From NCBI GenBank assembly GCA_025936735.1, contig JAICSU010000011.1, positions 1 through 34,685 on the forward strand: 34,685 nt of DNA, read 5' to 3'. The stretch comes from Amnibacterium sp. (lineage in GTDB: Bacteria > Actinomycetota > Actinomycetes > Actinomycetales > Microbacteriaceae). Below, in pieces: positions 3,166 through 12,693 of the stretch. Below the pieces are notes generated by a model. The model worked only from the letters and a program-made list of their open reading frames with translations. It had not been told where the DNA came from and did not search any database. How positions within the stretch are numbered: position 1 is the first letter of the stretch; every line of letters begins with the position of its first letter. The position numbers were made by a program, and so were the translations under genes.

Positions 3166-3671
3166 GCGCGGCCCGCGTGACGCGGCTGCGCCACGGGCTC
3201 GACGTCGTCCGCGAGCTGCCGGCCCCGGTCCCCCGCGTCTTCCGCGCCCTCTCCGAGCCCGCCGAGCTCCTGCTCTGGTGGGGACCGCCCGACTACCCGA
3301 TGGTGTGGTGCAGCCTCGACTTCCGCCCGGGAGGCGTGTGGCACTACCGGCTGCGCGGCCGGCGCACCGGCGAGGAGATCTGGGCGCGGGCGGTGTACGG
3401 CGAGATCGCGCCGCCCACCCGGCTGACCTATCTGGAGACGTCCTCCGATCCCGCGGGGTCGGTGACGCACGACCGGCCCCACGCCGATGTGGCCGTCGAG
3501 CTCGCGCCCGCCTCGGACGCCGCCACCGAGCTCACGATCCGCATCCGCCACCGCTCGGCGATGGACCGCGACCGGGCGATCCGCCTCGGCATCGAGACCG
3601 GGCTCGGCCGTGCCCTCGACACCCTCGAGGACGTCTTGAGCCGCACCACCACCCGACAGGAGAACCCATGA
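3162..3671 (+). CDS. SRPBCC (AHSA1-like) domain protein
   Basis: This 169-residue protein has the START-like AHSA1 fold: an N-terminal strand VVRELPAPVPRVFRALSEP, a WWGP element, then FRPGGVWHYRL and the middle strands, and a C-terminal helix. Such proteins form a hydrophobic pocket and very often sit next to an ArsR regulator, where they may bind the signalling ligand or act as an accessory. The ATG at 3162 overlaps the arsR stop by four bases, and its own stop overlaps the following hydrolase start by four bases, so the three are translationally coupled. The ligand is unknown. Confidence 0.85.
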   Translation: MSAARVTRLRHGLDVVRELPAPVPRVFRALSEPAELLLWWGPPDYPMVWCSLDFRPGGVWHYRLRGRRTGEEIWARAVYGEIAPPTRLTYLETSSDPAGSVTHDRPHADVAVELAPASDAATELTIRIRHRSAMDRDRAIRLGIETGLGRALDTLEDVLSRTTTRQENP

Positions 3672-4438
3672 CCGACACCGTGCAGTCCGCGGACGGAACC
3701 GCCATCGCCTACGAGGTCCACGGCGCGGGACCGGTGCTCGTGCTGGTCGACGGGGCGATGTGCTTCCGGGACAGCGGACCGATGCGGGGCATCGCGGACG
3801 CCATCGGCGACCGCCTCCGCGTGGTGCTGTACGACCGCCGTGGCCGCGGGGCCTCAGGCGACACCGCCCCCTACGCCGTCGAACGCGAGATCGAGGACCT
3901 CGCCGCGATCATCGATGCGGTCGGCGCACCCGCCGCGCTGTTCGGCATATCCTCCGGCGGCGCGCTCGCGCTGCGGGCGGCGGCGGCCCTCGACGCCGTC
4001 ACCCGGGTCGCGGTCTACGAGCCGCCCTACATGCCCGAGCCGGCCGTCGCCGGCGCCCACGCCTACACGGCGGAGCTCACGGACGCGCTCGGTCGCGGGG
4101 ACAGGGGCGCAGCCGTCGAGGCGTTCCTGCGCCGGGTCGGCCTGCCCCCTGAGGCGGTCGCGGGCATGCGGCACTCGCCCGCCTGGGCCGGCATGGAGGC
4201 CCTGGCGCCGACGCTCGCCTACGACGACGCCGCCATGGGAGACGGTCGCGTGCCGAGGTTCGACGGTCTCGCCGCTCCGGTGCTCGCACTCGCCGGCGGC
4301 GCGTCTCCCGACTTCCTCCAGTACGGGGCCCGCGCGGTCGCGGAGACGGCGGGCGGCAGGTTCGACGTGCTCGACGGCCAGACCCACGACATCGCCCCCG
4401 GCGTCGCCGCTGCCGCCCTGATCGACTTCGTGAGCTGA
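3668..4438 (+). CDS. Alpha/beta hydrolase
   Basis: This 256-residue cytoplasmic hydrolase has the usual fold. A strand VLVLVDGAM takes the oxyanion-hole position, followed by LYDRRGRGASG. The nucleophile elbow GISSG places Ser95, and the catalytic histidine is probably His240 in GQTHDIAP near the C-terminus. The cap region between about residues 120 and 190 is helical. There is no signal peptide. It is the last gene of the ArsR-SRPBCC-hydrolase operon and overlaps the SRPBCC gene by ATGA. The substrate is unknown; its coupling to a ligand-binding SRPBCC protein suggests a small hydrophobic ester or lactone. Confidence 0.83.
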   Translation: MTDTVQSADGTAIAYEVHGAGPVLVLVDGAMCFRDSGPMRGIADAIGDRLRVVLYDRRGRGASGDTAPYAVEREIEDLAAIIDAVGAPAALFGISSGGALALRAAAALDAVTRVAVYEPPYMPEPAVAGAHAYTAELTDALGRGDRGAAVEAFLRRVGLPPEAVAGMRHSPAWAGMEALAPTLAYDDAAMGDGRVPRFDGLAAPVLALAGGASPDFLQYGARAVAETAGGRFDVLDGQTHDIAPGVAAAALIDFVS

Positions 4439-4466
4439 CGGGTTGGGGCCGCCGGCCCAGCCCGTC
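4437..4466. terminator. Bidirectional hairpin terminator
   Basis: GACGGG and CCCGTC frame an inner TGGGGCC / GGCCCA pairing, making an almost continuous stem of about 13 bp. It overlaps the TGA of the hydrolase on one side and the TGA of the 48-residue minus-strand ORF on the other, so it serves both convergent genes. Confidence 0.7.
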
Positions 4467-4611
4467 AGTGCGACGCCGGGCGCGTCGACCGGCGGTCGGC
4501 GAGACGGACCGCCCTGCCGACGAACAGGGCGACGAGCGCGGCGGCGGCCAGCCAGGCGCCGGTGACCACCGGCACGAGGACGGCGGGCCCGAGCGAGAGC
4601 AGATCGTCCAT
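4465..4611 (-). CDS. Small single-pass membrane protein (48 aa)
   Basis: This ORF is too short for the supplied track. It encodes 48 residues: a short N-terminus MDDLLSLGP, a hydrophobic segment at about residues 9-32 (VLVPVVTGAWLAAAALVALF), and a basic C-terminus rich in Arg. This is a plausible one-pass membrane peptide with a cytoplasmic positive tail. The ATG is preceded by GAAGGAGGC, but the purine run ends only one base from the ATG, too close for normal ribosome binding; a TACGAA hexamer six bases upstream suggests a leaderless start instead. It lies 132 bases downstream of the DUF2156 gene on the same strand, and its stop forms one side of a shared terminator. I do not recognise the family. 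Confidence 0.55.
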   Translation of the reverse strand: MDDLLSLGPAVLVPVVTGAWLAAAALVALFVGRAVRLADRRSTRPASH

Positions 4612-4617
4612 GCCTCC

Positions 4618-4623
4618 TTCGTA
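4618..4623 (-). promoter_or_regulatory. Possible -10 element upstream of the 48-aa gene
   Basis: TACGAA stands six bases before the ATG. It matches TANNNT except for the last base, so it is a weak leaderless-promoter candidate. Confidence 0.3.
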
Positions 4624-4743
4624 CCCGGGCCGCACTGAGACGGCGGAAAGATGCGGGCCGCCCGACGCCCCGCCCTGCGCCGAACCCGGCCATGCCCTGA
4701 CGGCCCGTTCGGACTCGGCGCTGCCCTGAGGGGGCGAACCGGG

Positions 4744-7236
4744 TCAGCGCAGGGCGCCGGCGAGCCGGGCCATGTCCGGCAGCGACATGTCGGGCAGGTA
4801 GGCCCGCGCGATCGCGATCCCGATGCTCGGCAGGGCGAGCGGGTCGGGGAACGCCAGCACCACGGGCCGCAGCTCCGGCTGGAACTTCTCCTTGAACGCG
4901 GCCAGCGACCGGAAGCCGTAGGCGGGCTCGAGGATCCGCGCGAGCGCCCCGAGCGCTCGCGGGAGCTCGCCCTCACCCGACGCCGCGAGCGGAGCGACGG
5001 ACAGGCTGAGGAACTCCGCTCCCTCGTCCCGCAGCTGCAGCGCCATCGAGGCGATGAGGAACTCCATCACCCCGTTCATCCCGCCCGTGCGGCGGCGCAT
5101 GAAGTCGAGGGTCCAGCCGACGACGACGCCGTCGCGGTACGTGGGCAGCCAGCTCGTCACCCCTTCGACCCGGTCGTCGGGACCCACCGCGAGCAGCAGG
5201 CGGACCTCCGGGTCCTTCAGCTCCTCGATCCCGCCGAGCGTGAACTCGAGCTCCGGCAGCCGCCGGTCGGCGACCCACTCCTCCGAGATGGCGGTGATCT
5301 GGGACCGCCGAACGAGGGAGCAGTGCTCCCAGTCGGTTCCCACGGCGGTGACGCCGGCGCGCTCGGCCCGGTTGATCGAGGACCGGACGTCCTGCCACCG
5401 CTTCCCCTTCATGGCGAAGGACCGGGGGTCGATGACCGTGTCCTCGCCGATCAGGAGCGAGGGCCAGGACCGCGCCTCATCACCCAGAGCGTCCGCGAAC
5501 GCGGGCCGCACGGCGTAGAAGACGGGGGTGAGGCCGGCGTCGTCGCAGAAGAGCGCGAACTCCGCGGCGGCCGCCATGCGCCCGTCCTCCGGGCCGACGG
5601 GCTCCCCGACGGTGATGGCGACACCGTTCACCTCGCGGAACGCGACGGCATGGGCCGCGTCGGCGGCGAACCAGTAGCGGTTGCCGCGCCAGAGCGCCAT
5701 GTGCCCGAGCGATCCCGCGGATCCGCGGCGCAGGATCGACCGCACGCGGTCGAGGTCCCCGGTTGCGGGCGCCGCCCGGCGGGACAGTGCGGCGACGGCG
5801 AGCGCGCCGAGCAGCACGAGCCAGGCGATCGGCCCCGTCCAGTCGAAGAGCTGCTCCGCGGCGTCGGTCTGCGGCACGAAGTCGAGCCGCCGGAGTCGGA
5901 GGAATCCGACCGGCACGTACCGCTCGGGCAGGTCGCGAAGCAGGTCGAGCAGGCCGACGTGCGGCACGAACTGCTGCCGCAGCAGGAGTCCGACGCCGAT
6001 GTAGAGCACCGCCGTGGCGGCGAGCCCGCCGGCGACGACGACCGCGAATCCGACGGCAGCGCGGCGCGACGGCCGGACGTCGATGTGCCGGAGCGTCGCG
6101 AGCACGGCGATGGCCACTCCCGCGGGCACCCCGACGGCGAGGATCGTCTGCAGGTTCGGTCCGGCGGCTCCGCTCCGCGTGATCAGCTCGTCCGGGTCGA
6201 GCACGGCGGGCAGGAAGCCGTAGTAGATGCCCGCGAGCACGGCGAGAAGGGCGTTCACGCCGACGGCGACCAGGGCCGCGATGCGCCTGCCGCGCCACAT
6301 CGCGAAGGACGCGAGCAGGAGCACCACGAGCGGGAGCAGGGTCATCAGCACCGCGCCGGGCCCGTTCAGCCGCGCCAGCGCGATGTCGTGGACGCACCCG
6401 GGCGGCGGATGCGGCAGCCGGCATGCCGCGCGGAGGCGGCCGAGCGGCGGCAGGGTGTCACGGAAGAGGAGCCCGAGCGGCCGGAGCAGCCCGTAGCCGC
6501 GGGGAACGGCGAGGGCGACCAGGGGTCCGAGGGCGCTGACGGCGACGAGCGACGCCATCAGGCTCCTCGCCTCATGGTGCGAGCTGCGCGGCCACGTGAG
6601 GGTCGGCCGGCGACGGGCGAGCAGCAGACCGAGCCCGAGGCCGGCGACGGCCGCGAGCAGCCGATAGAGGTCGCCCGGCTGGCCCGAGTACAGCAGCACG
6701 ACGACCGCGCCGGACAGCCCGATCAACCGGATCCGCCGCCGCCACAGCGGACCGCTGACCGCGCTGGCGGTCAGGAGCGCGCCGAGCACCGGCGTGAGGG
6801 GCCCGGCCGCCGGAGCCCCGTCCGCGGGCGTCGTCCAGAAGGCATGGTCGAGCATGCCGAGCGACTGCAGCGCCACCCCGACGGTCACCCCGACGAACGA
6901 GGTCATCATGTAGGCGAGCACGGTCCAGGCGGTGCCGAGCACCCGCTCCACCGGCACGAGCACGGCGAGCACCGCGAGGACGCCGACGACGAGCCCCACG
7001 ACCGTCCGCGGCACGAAGATCCCGGCCCAGAGGGCGATCAGCTCGAGCGGGTGGTGACCCGCGGCGGACGGGGGCACCTCCGCCAGCAGGGGCGCGCGCA
7101 CCAGCGAACCGTCGGCGATGCCGACGACCACGAGCAGCACGGCCAGCACGCAGGAGGCAGGGCTCCTCCGCACCGCGTGCAGCAGTCGGCGCGCGGATGC
7201 GGTGTGGCCAGGCGAGGTGGCGACGGCGGCGCTCAC
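4744..7236 (-). CDS. MprF/LysX-like DUF2156 membrane protein (aminoacyl-lipid synthase candidate)
   Basis: This 830-residue protein has two parts. The first roughly 500 residues are a multi-pass membrane domain with many hydrophobic helices, for example LAVLLVVVGIA and VVGLVVGVLAVLAVLVPVERVLG. The rest is a soluble DUF2156 (GNAT-like) domain beginning near GDLDRVRSILRRGSAGSLGHMALW and including NRYWFAADAAHAVAF, FAMKGKRWQDVRSSINRAERAG and GGMNGVMEFLIASMAL. This is the arrangement of tRNA-dependent phosphatidylglycerol aminoacyl transferases that move Lys or Ala onto membrane lipid. I chose the GTG at 7236 because it overlaps the upstream hydrolase stop (GTGA); the track ORF's 1155 residues include out-of-frame sequence. 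The amino acid and lipid acceptor are not predictable from sequence alone. Confidence 0.85.
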   Translation of the reverse strand: MSAAVATSPGHTASARRLLHAVRRSPASCVLAVLLVVVGIADGSLVRAPLLAEVPPSAAGHHPLELIALWAGIFVPRTVVGLVVGVLAVLAVLVPVERVLGTAWTVLAYMMTSFVGVTVGVALQSLGMLDHAFWTTPADGAPAAGPLTPVLGALLTASAVSGPLWRRRIRLIGLSGAVVVLLYSGQPGDLYRLLAAVAGLGLGLLLARRRPTLTWPRSSHHEARSLMASLVAVSALGPLVALAVPRGYGLLRPLGLLFRDTLPPLGRLRAACRLPHPPPGCVHDIALARLNGPGAVLMTLLPLVVLLLASFAMWRGRRIAALVAVGVNALLAVLAGIYYGFLPAVLDPDELITRSGAAGPNLQTILAVGVPAGVAIAVLATLRHIDVRPSRRAAVGFAVVVAGGLAATAVLYIGVGLLLRQQFVPHVGLLDLLRDLPERYVPVGFLRLRRLDFVPQTDAAEQLFDWTGPIAWLVLLGALAVAALSRRAAPATGDLDRVRSILRRGSAGSLGHMALWRGNRYWFAADAAHAVAFREVNGVAITVGEPVGPEDGRMAAAAEFALFCDDAGLTPVFYAVRPAFADALGDEARSWPSLLIGEDTVIDPRSFAMKGKRWQDVRSSINRAERAGVTAVGTDWEHCSLVRRSQITAISEEWVADRRLPELEFTLGGIEELKDPEVRLLLAVGPDDRVEGVTSWLPTYRDGVVVGWTLDFMRRRTGGMNGVMEFLIASMALQLRDEGAEFLSLSVAPLAASGEGELPRALGALARILEPAYGFRSLAAFKEKFQPELRPVVLAFPDPLALPSIGIAIARAYLPDMSLPDMARLAGALR

Positions 7237-8528
7237 GAGATCCCCCACCACGGCAGGAGCTCGGGAAGGCCCCAGGCGAACCCCGCCGCCCCCGTGTTCC
7301 AGTTGTGCGCGAGGCCGGGCAGCACCCGGGTCGTCGTGCGCATGCCGGCGGCGCGCGACGCGGCGGCGAGCTCCGGCGTCGCCGCCCCGTAGCGCTTGTC
7401 GCCTGCGCCCACGCAGTAGAGCGCGAACGTGTGCCGGTAGGGCGCCAGTCGATGCATGATCGCGATGGGCTGGGCGGCCTCCCACGCGGTCCGACTGCCC
7501 CGGAAGGCGTCGTGCAGGGTGCGAGCGATCGACCCGTTGATCGGGCCGAGCTCCGAGGAGATCGCGAGGTACGACCCGAAGATCGCGGGGAAGCCCGCTC
7601 CGAACTGCGCGGCGCAGGTGCCGCCCTCCGAGAAGCCCGCCACGGTCCATTCCCGCCGGTTCGGCGCGACCGGCAGGTTCCGCAGCACCCACTCCCGCAC
7701 GTCGTCGACCACGTACCGCTGCACGTTCCCCATCCGTGAGTCCACGCACATCGGGTTCACGTTCGGGGCACCGAGCTGGTCGGGCGCGACGACGACGGGG
7801 GCCAGCCCGTGATGCGCGCGGGCGATCCCGTCCAGGGTGGCCTGCAGGTTCCCGGCGAGGAAGACGTCGGAGGGGCCACCCGGCTGGCCGGAGAAGGCGA
7901 TCACGACCGGCAGCCGCGGCGGGTGGGCCACCCGGGCGGCGGGCGGCAAGTAGATCCAGGCGGGCCGGGCGTGCCAGTGCGAATCGGTGCCGGGGATGTC
8001 GACGGTGCCGGTCGTCGGCAGGGAGGCCGGCGCCCGCCAGCCGCGCAGGGCCGCCACCGCATCGTCGCCGGAGTGCACGGACAGGGCCGAGATGTCCGTG
8101 ACGCCGAACACGTCGCCGAGCTTGGGGAAGTAGGCCACGTCCCTGTTGATCATCAGGCCGCCCGCTGCGACGGCGACCACGATCGTGAGCACCGCGACGA
8201 CCCTGCGCCACCAGCGCGTCCCCACGAGGTTGCCGATGGCGAGCCCGACCCCCGCGCCCGCTCCGGCGGCGGCGGCTCGGATGACCAGGGAGGCGGGGAC
8301 GCCGAACAGGTCGTCGACGTCGACCACGACGACCACGAGGAGGGAACCGGCGAGGGCGCCGATGCCGGCCGCGAGCAGCACGAGGGGCTCCCAGATCCGG
8401 ACACGCATGCGGACGCCGGGCATCGGCAGCAGCAGCGCGAGGGCGAGCACGCCGGCGACCGCGTAGACCGGTGCCAGCACGCGCACCGACTCGATCGGCA
8501 GCCCAAGCAGCCAGCCCTGCGGCGTCAC
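7233..8528 (-). CDS. Membrane-anchored alpha/beta hydrolase (esterase family)
   Basis: This protein is about 431 residues. Four membrane segments come first (near VLAPVYAVAGVLALALLL, EPLVLLAAGIGALAGSLLVVVVV, SLVIRAAAAGAGAGVGLAI and VVAVLTIVVAVAAGGLMI). A PF00756-like esterase domain follows and would face outside the cell. Visible elements are LPVVIAFSGQPGG, VVVAPDQLG, the nucleophile elbow VAGFSEGG and a late LPGLAHNW histidine. The start is uncertain: GTG 8528 gives a short N-terminus before the first helix and has AGGG seven bases upstream, while GTG 8579 would add 17 residues. Its stop overlaps the DUF2156 start, so the two are translationally coupled. A role in removing aminoacyl groups from lipid made by its partner is an inference. 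Confidence 0.8.
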   Translation of the reverse strand: MTPQGWLLGLPIESVRVLAPVYAVAGVLALALLLPMPGVRMRVRIWEPLVLLAAGIGALAGSLLVVVVVDVDDLFGVPASLVIRAAAAGAGAGVGLAIGNLVGTRWWRRVVAVLTIVVAVAAGGLMINRDVAYFPKLGDVFGVTDISALSVHSGDDAVAALRGWRAPASLPTTGTVDIPGTDSHWHARPAWIYLPPAARVAHPPRLPVVIAFSGQPGGPSDVFLAGNLQATLDGIARAHHGLAPVVVAPDQLGAPNVNPMCVDSRMGNVQRYVVDDVREWVLRNLPVAPNRREWTVAGFSEGGTCAAQFGAGFPAIFGSYLAISSELGPINGSIARTLHDAFRGSRTAWEAAQPIAIMHRLAPYRHTFALYCVGAGDKRYGAATPELAAASRAAGMRTTTRVLPGLAHNWNTGAAGFAWGLPELLPWWGIS

Positions 8529-8742
8529 GGTCGTGCCCTGCGGCCCGGACGGACCCCCCAGGATCGCATCGGCGATCACCTCCGACGCGCCATCCTCACC
8601 GCCGTGCGCTGAGGTGCCGCAAAGGATCACCCGCGCGGCCACCCTCGTCGTGTTCGGCCGGCTCGGAGGCGGCATGCCGCAGCCTCGAAGGCGATGTCCG
8701 GGTGGGCGCGACACCATCCGGACCAAGAAGAGGGAGGACGAC

Positions 8743-9336
8743 ATGCCCGACGAGCCAGGCAACCAGACCCCGAACACGCCCGATGTGAGCGAGACGGAGC
8801 TGCGCGAGCAGAAGGTCGACGAGCTCCGCCGGGAGGCCCGCGACGCGGGCGTCTCGGGGGCGTCCGACATGAAGAAGGAGGAGCTGGTCCACGCGGTGGC
8901 CGAGGCCCGCTCCGGCGGGGACGGCGCCGAGGAGGACGACGCGTCGCGAGGCGCGGGTCCCGACGGCGGGCACGTCCGCACCGGCCCCGACACGTCGAAG
9001 TCGCTGAAGTACTCGCAGGAGGTCACCTCCACCGATCAGGACCCGGAGCGGCCGGGGCGCAGCCTCGTCACCACCCACCACGACGTGATCCGGGATTGGG
9101 CGGAGTCGCGCGGCGGCCGGCCCGCGACCGTGCCGGGGACCGAGCACGGCGACCACCTCGGCGTGCTCCGGCTCGACTTCGGCGGCGACGACAGCGGGCT
9201 CCGCCACGTCTCCTGGGACGAGTGGTTCGCCACCTTCGACGACCGGCGGCTCAACTTCATCTACCAGGAGGAGCGCTCGGACGGGCACACGTCCACGTTC
9301 TTCCGGCTGGAGAGCCCGGACCGCGAGGACGCCTGA
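8743..9336 (+). CDS. Rho_N-domain protein with conserved acidic C-terminal domain
   Basis: This 197-residue hydrophilic protein has an N-terminal Rho_N/SAP-like helix-extended-loop-helix at about residues 19-50 (REQKVDELRREARDAGVSG, then KKEELVHAVAEA). An acidic linker follows, then a C-terminal domain starting at LVTTHHDVIRDWAESRGGRP and including HLGVLRLDFGG, VSWDEWFATFDDRRLNFIYQ and TSTFFRLESP. I recall this C-terminal domain from many hypothetical proteins that pair it with Rho_N or plasmid-stability domains; its function is not known to me. AGGGAGG five bases before the ATG fixes the start. It is transcribed divergently from the hydrolase/DUF2156 operon across about 210 bases. Confidence 0.8.
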   Translation: MPDEPGNQTPNTPDVSETELREQKVDELRREARDAGVSGASDMKKEELVHAVAEARSGGDGAEEDDASRGAGPDGGHVRTGPDTSKSLKYSQEVTSTDQDPERPGRSLVTTHHDVIRDWAESRGGRPATVPGTEHGDHLGVLRLDFGGDDSGLRHVSWDEWFATFDDRRLNFIYQEERSDGHTSTFFRLESPDREDA

Positions 9337-11191: not shown

Positions 11192-12574
11192 TCAGTCGGC
11201 GCGGCCGGGTGGGTCGCCGGCGAGGTGGATGCGGTGTCGTTGCATCCGGTGCCGGGGCAGGGGGTCGCCGCGCCACCGTTTGGGGACGAGGTGGGGTGCC
11301 CGGTTGTGGAGGCGGATCTCCCACTGGTCGGTCGAGTGGATCAGATGGTGGTGGTACGAGCACAGGAGCACACCGTTGTCGATGTCGGTGGTGCCGCCGT
11401 CCCGGCGGACCCATTTGATGTGGTGGCCTTCGGTCCAGGCGACCGGGGCGGTGCAGCCGGGCCACGCGCAGCCGCCGTCCCGGGCCGCGAGGGCTCTCTT
11501 CTGGGCTCGGCTGAAGAGTCGCTGTTTCGTGCCGAGGTAGAGCGGCTCCCCGCCGTCTCCGGTCACCACGACCCGGGTCGAACCGGCGCACTGCAGCCGC
11601 TGCACCGTGGGGATCGAGATCCGGCCCGACGCCCCGTCCGCCCACCCGCAGCCGCGCCCGGTCTGAAGGTCGGCGGCGGTGACGTGGACGATCACCTCGG
11701 GCTCGGCGGCGGTGCTGCTGGCGCTGTCCGCCTCGGCCCGCAGCCCGGCCTTGAGGATGTCGACCAGGGTGTCGTGGTCGAACTGCGGCTTGGAGCGCTG
11801 GTCGCCGTCGGCCTCGTGCCATTCGCAGTCGTCCGCACAGTCCTCCGCCGGCTGCCGCGTCCACTGCACCCCGCGGCGATGTGACGCGATCGCCGCCTTG
11901 AGCAGCGCCGTGATCTCCGGCTCGGTCTTCAACACCGTGGTGGTGATCCCATCGGGACCTTCGCGTCCGATCTTCAGGCTCCGGTTGCGGTGCGCGGCGT
12001 CCTCGGCCGGCTTGGTCCCGTCGGGGTCCAGGACGGCCTGCCACACCTCGGCCTGCACCCGCAGCAGATCCGGCGACAACGTCTCAGCGCTCTCCACGAG
12101 GGCGGCCTCGGCGACCTCGAGCTGCTCCCGCCCGGCACGCCGGGCCACCGCGCCGAGCGCGTCGACGATCACCCGCGCCGCATCCACCCCGATCGCGCCG
12201 GCCTCGAGCGCGGCGGCCACGTGGGCCCACCGGGACGGGATCACCTCGCCGGTGATCGACAGCCCGGCCCGGACCCGGAGTCCCAGCGCGGTGCGCCGCC
12301 GCGCCTCCCGCGTGCCGATCCGCAGCTGCCGGGCCAACAGGTCGGTCGCGTCCCGGTCACCGTGCTGCTTGGCGAGCGACGCATCGCCGAGCTGCTCCCG
12401 GGACCGCCAGGCGACCTCACCGGCCAGCGCGACCCGACGGGCGTCCGCGAGGCGGCCGATGGCCTCCCACGCCTCGCTCTGTTCCAGCAGCCGGCAGTCG
12501 TCCAGCACCGCCGGTCGGCAGGCGACGGCGGCCAGCGCGAGGGCTTCCGCCGCCAGCTGCTCGATCACCTGCAT
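11192..12574 (-). CDS. DUF222 / HNH endonuclease (13E12-type repeat protein)
   Basis: This 460-residue protein has an N-terminal helical DUF222 region (VIEQLAAEALALAAVAC through the Arg-rich RRRTALGLRVRAGL) and a C-terminal HNH nuclease motif. The motif reads CAWPGC, then EGHHIKWVRRDGG, NGVLLC and HHHLIH, so the paired zinc cysteines, the HH dyad and the Asn are all present. Such genes are multicopy in many actinobacteria and are known as 13E12 repeats in Mycobacterium; they may be mobile nucleases. ATG 12574 was preferred because CACGAT, with an extended TG, stands six bases upstream; GTG 12580 is the alternative. Confidence 0.85.
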   Translation of the reverse strand: MQVIEQLAAEALALAAVACRPAVLDDCRLLEQSEAWEAIGRLADARRVALAGEVAWRSREQLGDASLAKQHGDRDATDLLARQLRIGTREARRRTALGLRVRAGLSITGEVIPSRWAHVAAALEAGAIGVDAARVIVDALGAVARRAGREQLEVAEAALVESAETLSPDLLRVQAEVWQAVLDPDGTKPAEDAAHRNRSLKIGREGPDGITTTVLKTEPEITALLKAAIASHRRGVQWTRQPAEDCADDCEWHEADGDQRSKPQFDHDTLVDILKAGLRAEADSASSTAAEPEVIVHVTAADLQTGRGCGWADGASGRISIPTVQRLQCAGSTRVVVTGDGGEPLYLGTKQRLFSRAQKRALAARDGGCAWPGCTAPVAWTEGHHIKWVRRDGGTTDIDNGVLLCSYHHHLIHSTDQWEIRLHNRAPHLVPKRWRGDPLPRHRMQRHRIHLAGDPPGRAD

Positions 12575-12580
12575 GCGCAC

Positions 12581-12586
12581 ATCGTG
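12581..12586 (-). promoter_or_regulatory. Possible extended -10 for the HNH gene
   Basis: CACGAT is preceded by TGT and followed by exactly six bases and then ATG. It matches the -10 consensus only at the second and sixth positions, so this is a weak leaderless candidate. Confidence 0.25.
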
Positions 12587-12693
12587 ACACCGCCCACCGA
12601 CAGCCCCTGACGACCGAGAGAGCCCGCCGACCAGGGAAACGTCGTCCACAGGGCGCTCGGCCAGAACGGGCCTGGGGAGGAACGGATGCCGCG

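Follow-up and report, generated by a model that had tools for sequence, protein, structure and literature searches.

A PesT-like membrane esterase gene overlaps an AlaDAGS-like synthase gene in Amnibacterium sp.: a probable make-and-transfer pair for aminoacyl lipids

What does a membrane-anchored esterase do when its gene runs directly into that of an aminoacyl-lipid synthase? The question is raised by a 34,685-nucleotide stretch of an Amnibacterium sp. contig (JAICSU010000011.1), hereafter the window, where two such genes overlap on the minus strand. The initial annotation had suggested that they could be a make-and-remove switch, in which one enzyme adds amino acids to membrane lipids and the other takes them off, so tuning surface charge and antimicrobial resistance. 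We hypothesize instead, and consider it probable, that the two genes are a pesT-alaDAGS operon, in which the synthase makes aminoacyl-diacylglycerol (aminoacyl-DAG) and the esterase passes the amino acid to phosphatidylglycerol (PG). The argument draws on the following features.

7233 to 8528, minus strand: PesT-like membrane esterase, 431 aa, GTG start at 8528 (open reading frame; PF00756, E=6.6e-11; PesT homology)
8136 to 8486, minus strand: four transmembrane helices, residues 15-131 (AlphaFold2 helices; loop charges)
7245 to 8012, minus strand: alpha/beta-hydrolase domain, residues 173-428 (AlphaFold2 and Foldseek)
7629 to 7631, minus strand: predicted nucleophile Ser300 in GFSEGG (invariant in 36 aligned sequences)
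7398 to 7400, minus strand: predicted triad residue Asp377 (invariant in 15 and at least 90% conserved in 36 aligned sequences)
7305 to 7307, minus strand: predicted triad residue His408 (invariant in 36 aligned sequences)
7233 to 7236, minus strand: GTGA stop/start overlap from esterase to synthase (sequence)
4744 to 7236, minus strand: AlaDAGS-like aminoacyl-lipid synthase, 830 aa (PF09924; AlaDAGS homology; AlaDAGS clade)
4852 to 5739, minus strand: GNAT-like aminoacyl transferase domain of the synthase, PF09924, residues 500-795 (Pfam; Foldseek)

The first gene is what the initial annotation took it to be, a membrane esterase with a GFSEGG motif and four helices. The Pfam Esterase domain covers residues 191-411 of the open reading frame, and an AlphaFold2 model built on a 36-sequence alignment (mean pLDDT 89.3) places helices at residues 15-33, 43-71, 81-101 and 106-131, followed by the alpha/beta-hydrolase domain. 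The reading frame is real, because 35 homologues keep it as protein at 24-78% identity, with Ser300 and His408 invariant and Asp377 kept in at least 90%, a conserved triad-like set of residues. High-GC open reading frames also run along the plus strand here. The charges of the membrane loops (+2, -2, +3), together with a cysteine pair, C261/C305, that is invariant among the 36 aligned sequences, suggest that the catalytic domain lies outside the cell. Foldseek matches the model to esterase D, feruloyl esterases and S-formylglutathione hydrolases, the latter two being the best matches, and the sequence profile reaches the Ag85/PS1 mycolyltransferases as well as feruloyl esterases. The superfamily comprises both hydrolases and acyltransferases, and the fold alone decides neither direction.

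The overlap with a DUF2156/MprF-like gene is likewise borne out: the esterase stop codon TGA (7235-7233) shares bases with the synthase start codon GTG (7236-7234), and the synthase, a full-length member of the MprF family, has LPG_synthase_C as its Pfam domain (PF09924, also called DUF2156; E=5.1e-73). Foldseek finds that its transferase domain resembles the LPG/APG synthase domains 4v36, 4v35 and 6lv0, and that the whole model has both MprF and the soluble domains of MprF among its matches; the NCBIfam equivalog for MprF as a bifunctional LPG flippase/synthetase scores 135 bits, below its cut-off of 600. LysX was considered and rejected as the identity of this protein, which falls in a different clade, scores 128 bits against a cut-off of 742 with the NCBIfam LysX model, and ends after PF09924, where a search for a LysRS domain did not match it. 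The N-terminal 215 aa (6592-7236) form a region common to the AlaDAGS of Corynebacterium glutamicum; a rhomboid-like N-terminus, suggested by eye, was discarded, as no rhomboid stood among the best 50 Foldseek matches. A scan of 4300-9000 for promoters and terminators found none. Elsewhere in the window, a 485-aa open reading frame (11192-12649, minus strand) appears by eye to be of the DUF222/HNH endonuclease type.

A lack of association in other genomes was among the outcomes that the initial annotation named as refuting its reading, and the synteny check it proposed, whether this hydrolase adjoins DUF2156 genes elsewhere, revealed a strong association. Among 40 genomes, the window's own and those of its relatives, 17 hold the esterase; PF09924 is present in all 17 of these, as against 5 of the 23 without the esterase (Fisher p=3e-7, kinship ignored). 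By coordinates the esterase lies beside the PF09924 gene in 15 of the 17, the exceptions being genomes G022 and G026. A class-wide sample of 297 genomes gave 88 esterase matches at E<=1e-20 in 60 genomes, window included, from which 70 were taken with their flanks (17 were left out, mostly the weakest, and some flanks end at contig edges). A synthase lies within about 6 kb in 33 of these 70 loci, where a rough estimate expects about 0.3 by chance; a single family, f19, supplies 33 of the 70 sampled loci, and kinship inflates all of these counts. Adjacency is thus some 100 times above chance, across several orientations and families, and the pairing is not a chance one.

Arrangements nevertheless vary: the esterase precedes the synthase in the window's own family and others, the synthase precedes the esterase in the LysX types and in family f33, and divergent and convergent pairs also occur. 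Once duplicate loci and one paralogue had been taken out by hand, there were 35 distinct pairs with the esterase gene first, and in 31 of them the two genes share an A/GTGA overlap. The overlap, together with the conserved gene order, suggests translational coupling of the two genes. Roughly half of the esterase homologues from the class-wide sample have no adjoining synthase, and PesT-family esterases may therefore have other roles; full-length PesT-like esterases in synthase-free neighbourhoods are found in L101 (G022), L032 (G166), L027 (G154) and L029 (G131). A Corynebacterium locus, L107 (G358), sets a PesT-like esterase beside a very divergent LPG-family synthase (3321-5933 of that locus, minus strand; 170 bits, branch length 3.65).

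Which pathway the pair serves is best approached through its homologues in C. glutamicum. We take genome G708 to be strain ATCC 13032, since a search of the genus Corynebacterium found its PorA to be 100% identical to that of C. glutamicum. At one locus of this genome (L157) an esterase gene is followed, 2 bases downstream, by that of an 832-aa synthase, the pair published as pesT and alaDAGS (PMC10580965). Aligned with AlaDAGS across 764 aa, the window synthase shows 33% identity (E=9e-116); for the window esterase and PesT the alignment spans 307 aa at 31% (E=1e-40). A tree built from 63 synthase domains puts the window protein and C. glutamicum AlaDAGS inside one 28-row set (support 96/94), and a further branch (100/99) parts the AlaDAGS-type half from LysX and other types. 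The esterase tree, made by a quick method with SH-aLRT support only, groups the window protein with AlaDAGS-linked relatives, with unlinked paralogues interspersed. Judged by homology, the window pair is an actinobacterial version of the known pesT-alaDAGS pair, and the pairing itself is not new; what is gained is that two previously unannotated genes can be assigned to a lipid-modification pathway already described.

Smith et al. in 2015 reportedly found that Ala-PG needs the synthase AlaDAGS plus a putative esterase encoded upstream; we take this role of PesT from a later paper of that laboratory. AlaDAGS makes Ala-DAG, and the Ala-PG of C. glutamicum arises through a downstream pathway, whose lysine counterpart is described as transfer from aminoacyl-DAG to PG; a double mutant without pesT and alaDAGS was used in the same study (Gill et al. 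2023, PMC10580965). Because the published reading for the C. glutamicum homologues is Ala-DAG followed by Ala-PG, the same mechanism is the likeliest one for the window pair, for which we infer substrate, amino acid, topology and direction of transfer alike. On the cytoplasmic side the synthase would accept from aminoacyl-tRNA an amino acid that is probably alanine, and would attach it to diacylglycerol; the membrane part of the enzyme probably assists the product in moving outward. In the esterase domain, predicted to lie outside, Ser300 would then attack the aminoacyl ester, and the amino acid would pass from aminoacyl-diacylglycerol to phosphatidylglycerol, giving aminoacyl-PG. There is reason to doubt the proposed tuning of antimicrobial resistance in the AlaDAGS branch, because in published work neither growth nor resistance nor virulence was affected by Ala-DAG (Gill et al. 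2023, PMC10580965).

The initial annotation's functional link between the two genes within an aminoacyl-lipid pathway is thus retained, but its direction is not: among characterised homologues the nearest, PesT, is linked to the production of Ala-PG, and AlaDAGS-clade placement together with PesT homology likely favours transfer over removal. In other words, the esterase probably serves to form aminoacyl-PG and not to break down aminoacyl lipid. That it is nonetheless a true hydrolase, removing the amino acid from its partner's lipid, is in our judgement unlikely. Most of its fold matches are hydrolases, and a synthase and its dedicated hydrolase do share an operon elsewhere, as lpiA-acvB in Agrobacterium shows (PMC13197417, PMC13135905). 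However, the known proteobacterial aminoacyl-lipid hydrolases AcvB, VirJ and PA0919 are homologous to one another and form one family, and membership of the window esterase in AcvB/VirJ was rejected, as it belongs to a different Pfam family, with PF00756 alone found at E<=1. Another type of aminoacyl-PG hydrolase is AhyD of Enterococcus faecium. Removal is also disfavoured by passages of a preprint on M. marinum, in which disruption of the lysX-adjacent Rv1639c/MMAR_2446 caused no significant change in lysyl-DAG (PMC12637418).

A transfer pair could also handle an amino acid other than alanine, such as lysine, or use PG as its first acceptor, and would then yield a different aminoacyl lipid. 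The sequence gives no confident specificity, and a PDB sequence search with the synthase puts the lysyl-PG synthase 4v36 (80 bits) above the alanyl enzyme 4v34 (63 bits); yet the synthase sits in the AlaDAGS clade and lacks the LysRS domain, and we regard this variant as quite improbable. There is very little chance that the esterase acts on some other envelope ester, for example of a glycolipid, teichoic acid or acyl-sugar, and shares only its location with lipid aminoacylation, as its kinship in fold to feruloyl esterases, its profile match to mycolyltransferases and its many synthase-free homologues might suggest, given adjacency so far above chance in several orientations and families and a synthase in every one of the 17 relatives that hold it.

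The make-and-transfer reading of the window pair bears on a wider question, for PesT-family esterases also lie beside lysX. In 11 loci of the class sample (L036, L037, L039, L040, L044, L045, L049, L050, L058, L061 and L063) the esterase gene is downstream of lysX, and in three Corynebacterium loci (L110, L139 and L141) the two are convergent. We provisionally place Rv1639c/MMAR_2446 in the PesT-like family, because genes of this family lie next to lysX in Mycobacterium-like genomes and because Rv1639c is reported to have a putative esterase domain (PMC9504009). Tentatively, and with the odds rather against it, one might generalise that PesT-family esterases are the second enzyme of actinobacterial aminoacyl-DAG pathways, moving alanine (AlaDAGS) or lysine (LysX) to PG. 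If this is true, such esterases would convert Lys-DAG into Lys-PG, whose origin in C. pseudotuberculosis was ascribed to an undefined downstream pathway (Gill et al. 2023, PMC10580965). The lysX-adjacent esterase is a reasonable candidate for that step, and synteny with lysX thereby offers a concrete candidate gene for the origin of Lys-PG where LysX makes only Lys-DAG, although the reported M. marinum mutant of such a gene kept its lysyl-DAG level, the one lipid that the passages on it give (PMC12637418).

Set against known systems, the window pair stands closest to pesT-alaDAGS of C. glutamicum, with which it shares adjacency, gene order, domains, sizes, the conserved Ser/Asp/His and homology over most of the length. 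The C. glutamicum genes, however, are 2 bases apart whereas those of the window overlap by 4, and identity is only 31-33%, so that the function of the window pair is a prediction. Rv1640c-Rv1639c, in which LysX makes lysyl-DAG, likewise joins an MprF-family synthase to a PF00756 membrane esterase, but LysX belongs to another clade and carries a lysyl-tRNA synthetase domain that the window synthase lacks, and at lysX loci the esterase follows the synthase in Mycobacterium-like genomes, or converges with it in some Corynebacterium, whereas in the window it comes first. AcvB/VirJ with LpiA, the lysyl-PG hydrolase operon of Agrobacterium, also combines a synthase and a serine alpha/beta-hydrolase; AcvB, however, comes from a different family, has two domains and is soluble in the periplasm, and its hydrolysis has been demonstrated, whereas for the window esterase, known from sequence and model, hydrolysis would be a putative activity. 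The Antigen 85/PS1 mycolyltransferases share the fold superfamily of the window esterase and match its profile weakly, and they move acyl groups outside the cell from mycolate donors, but they are secreted, whereas the window esterase is anchored by four helices.
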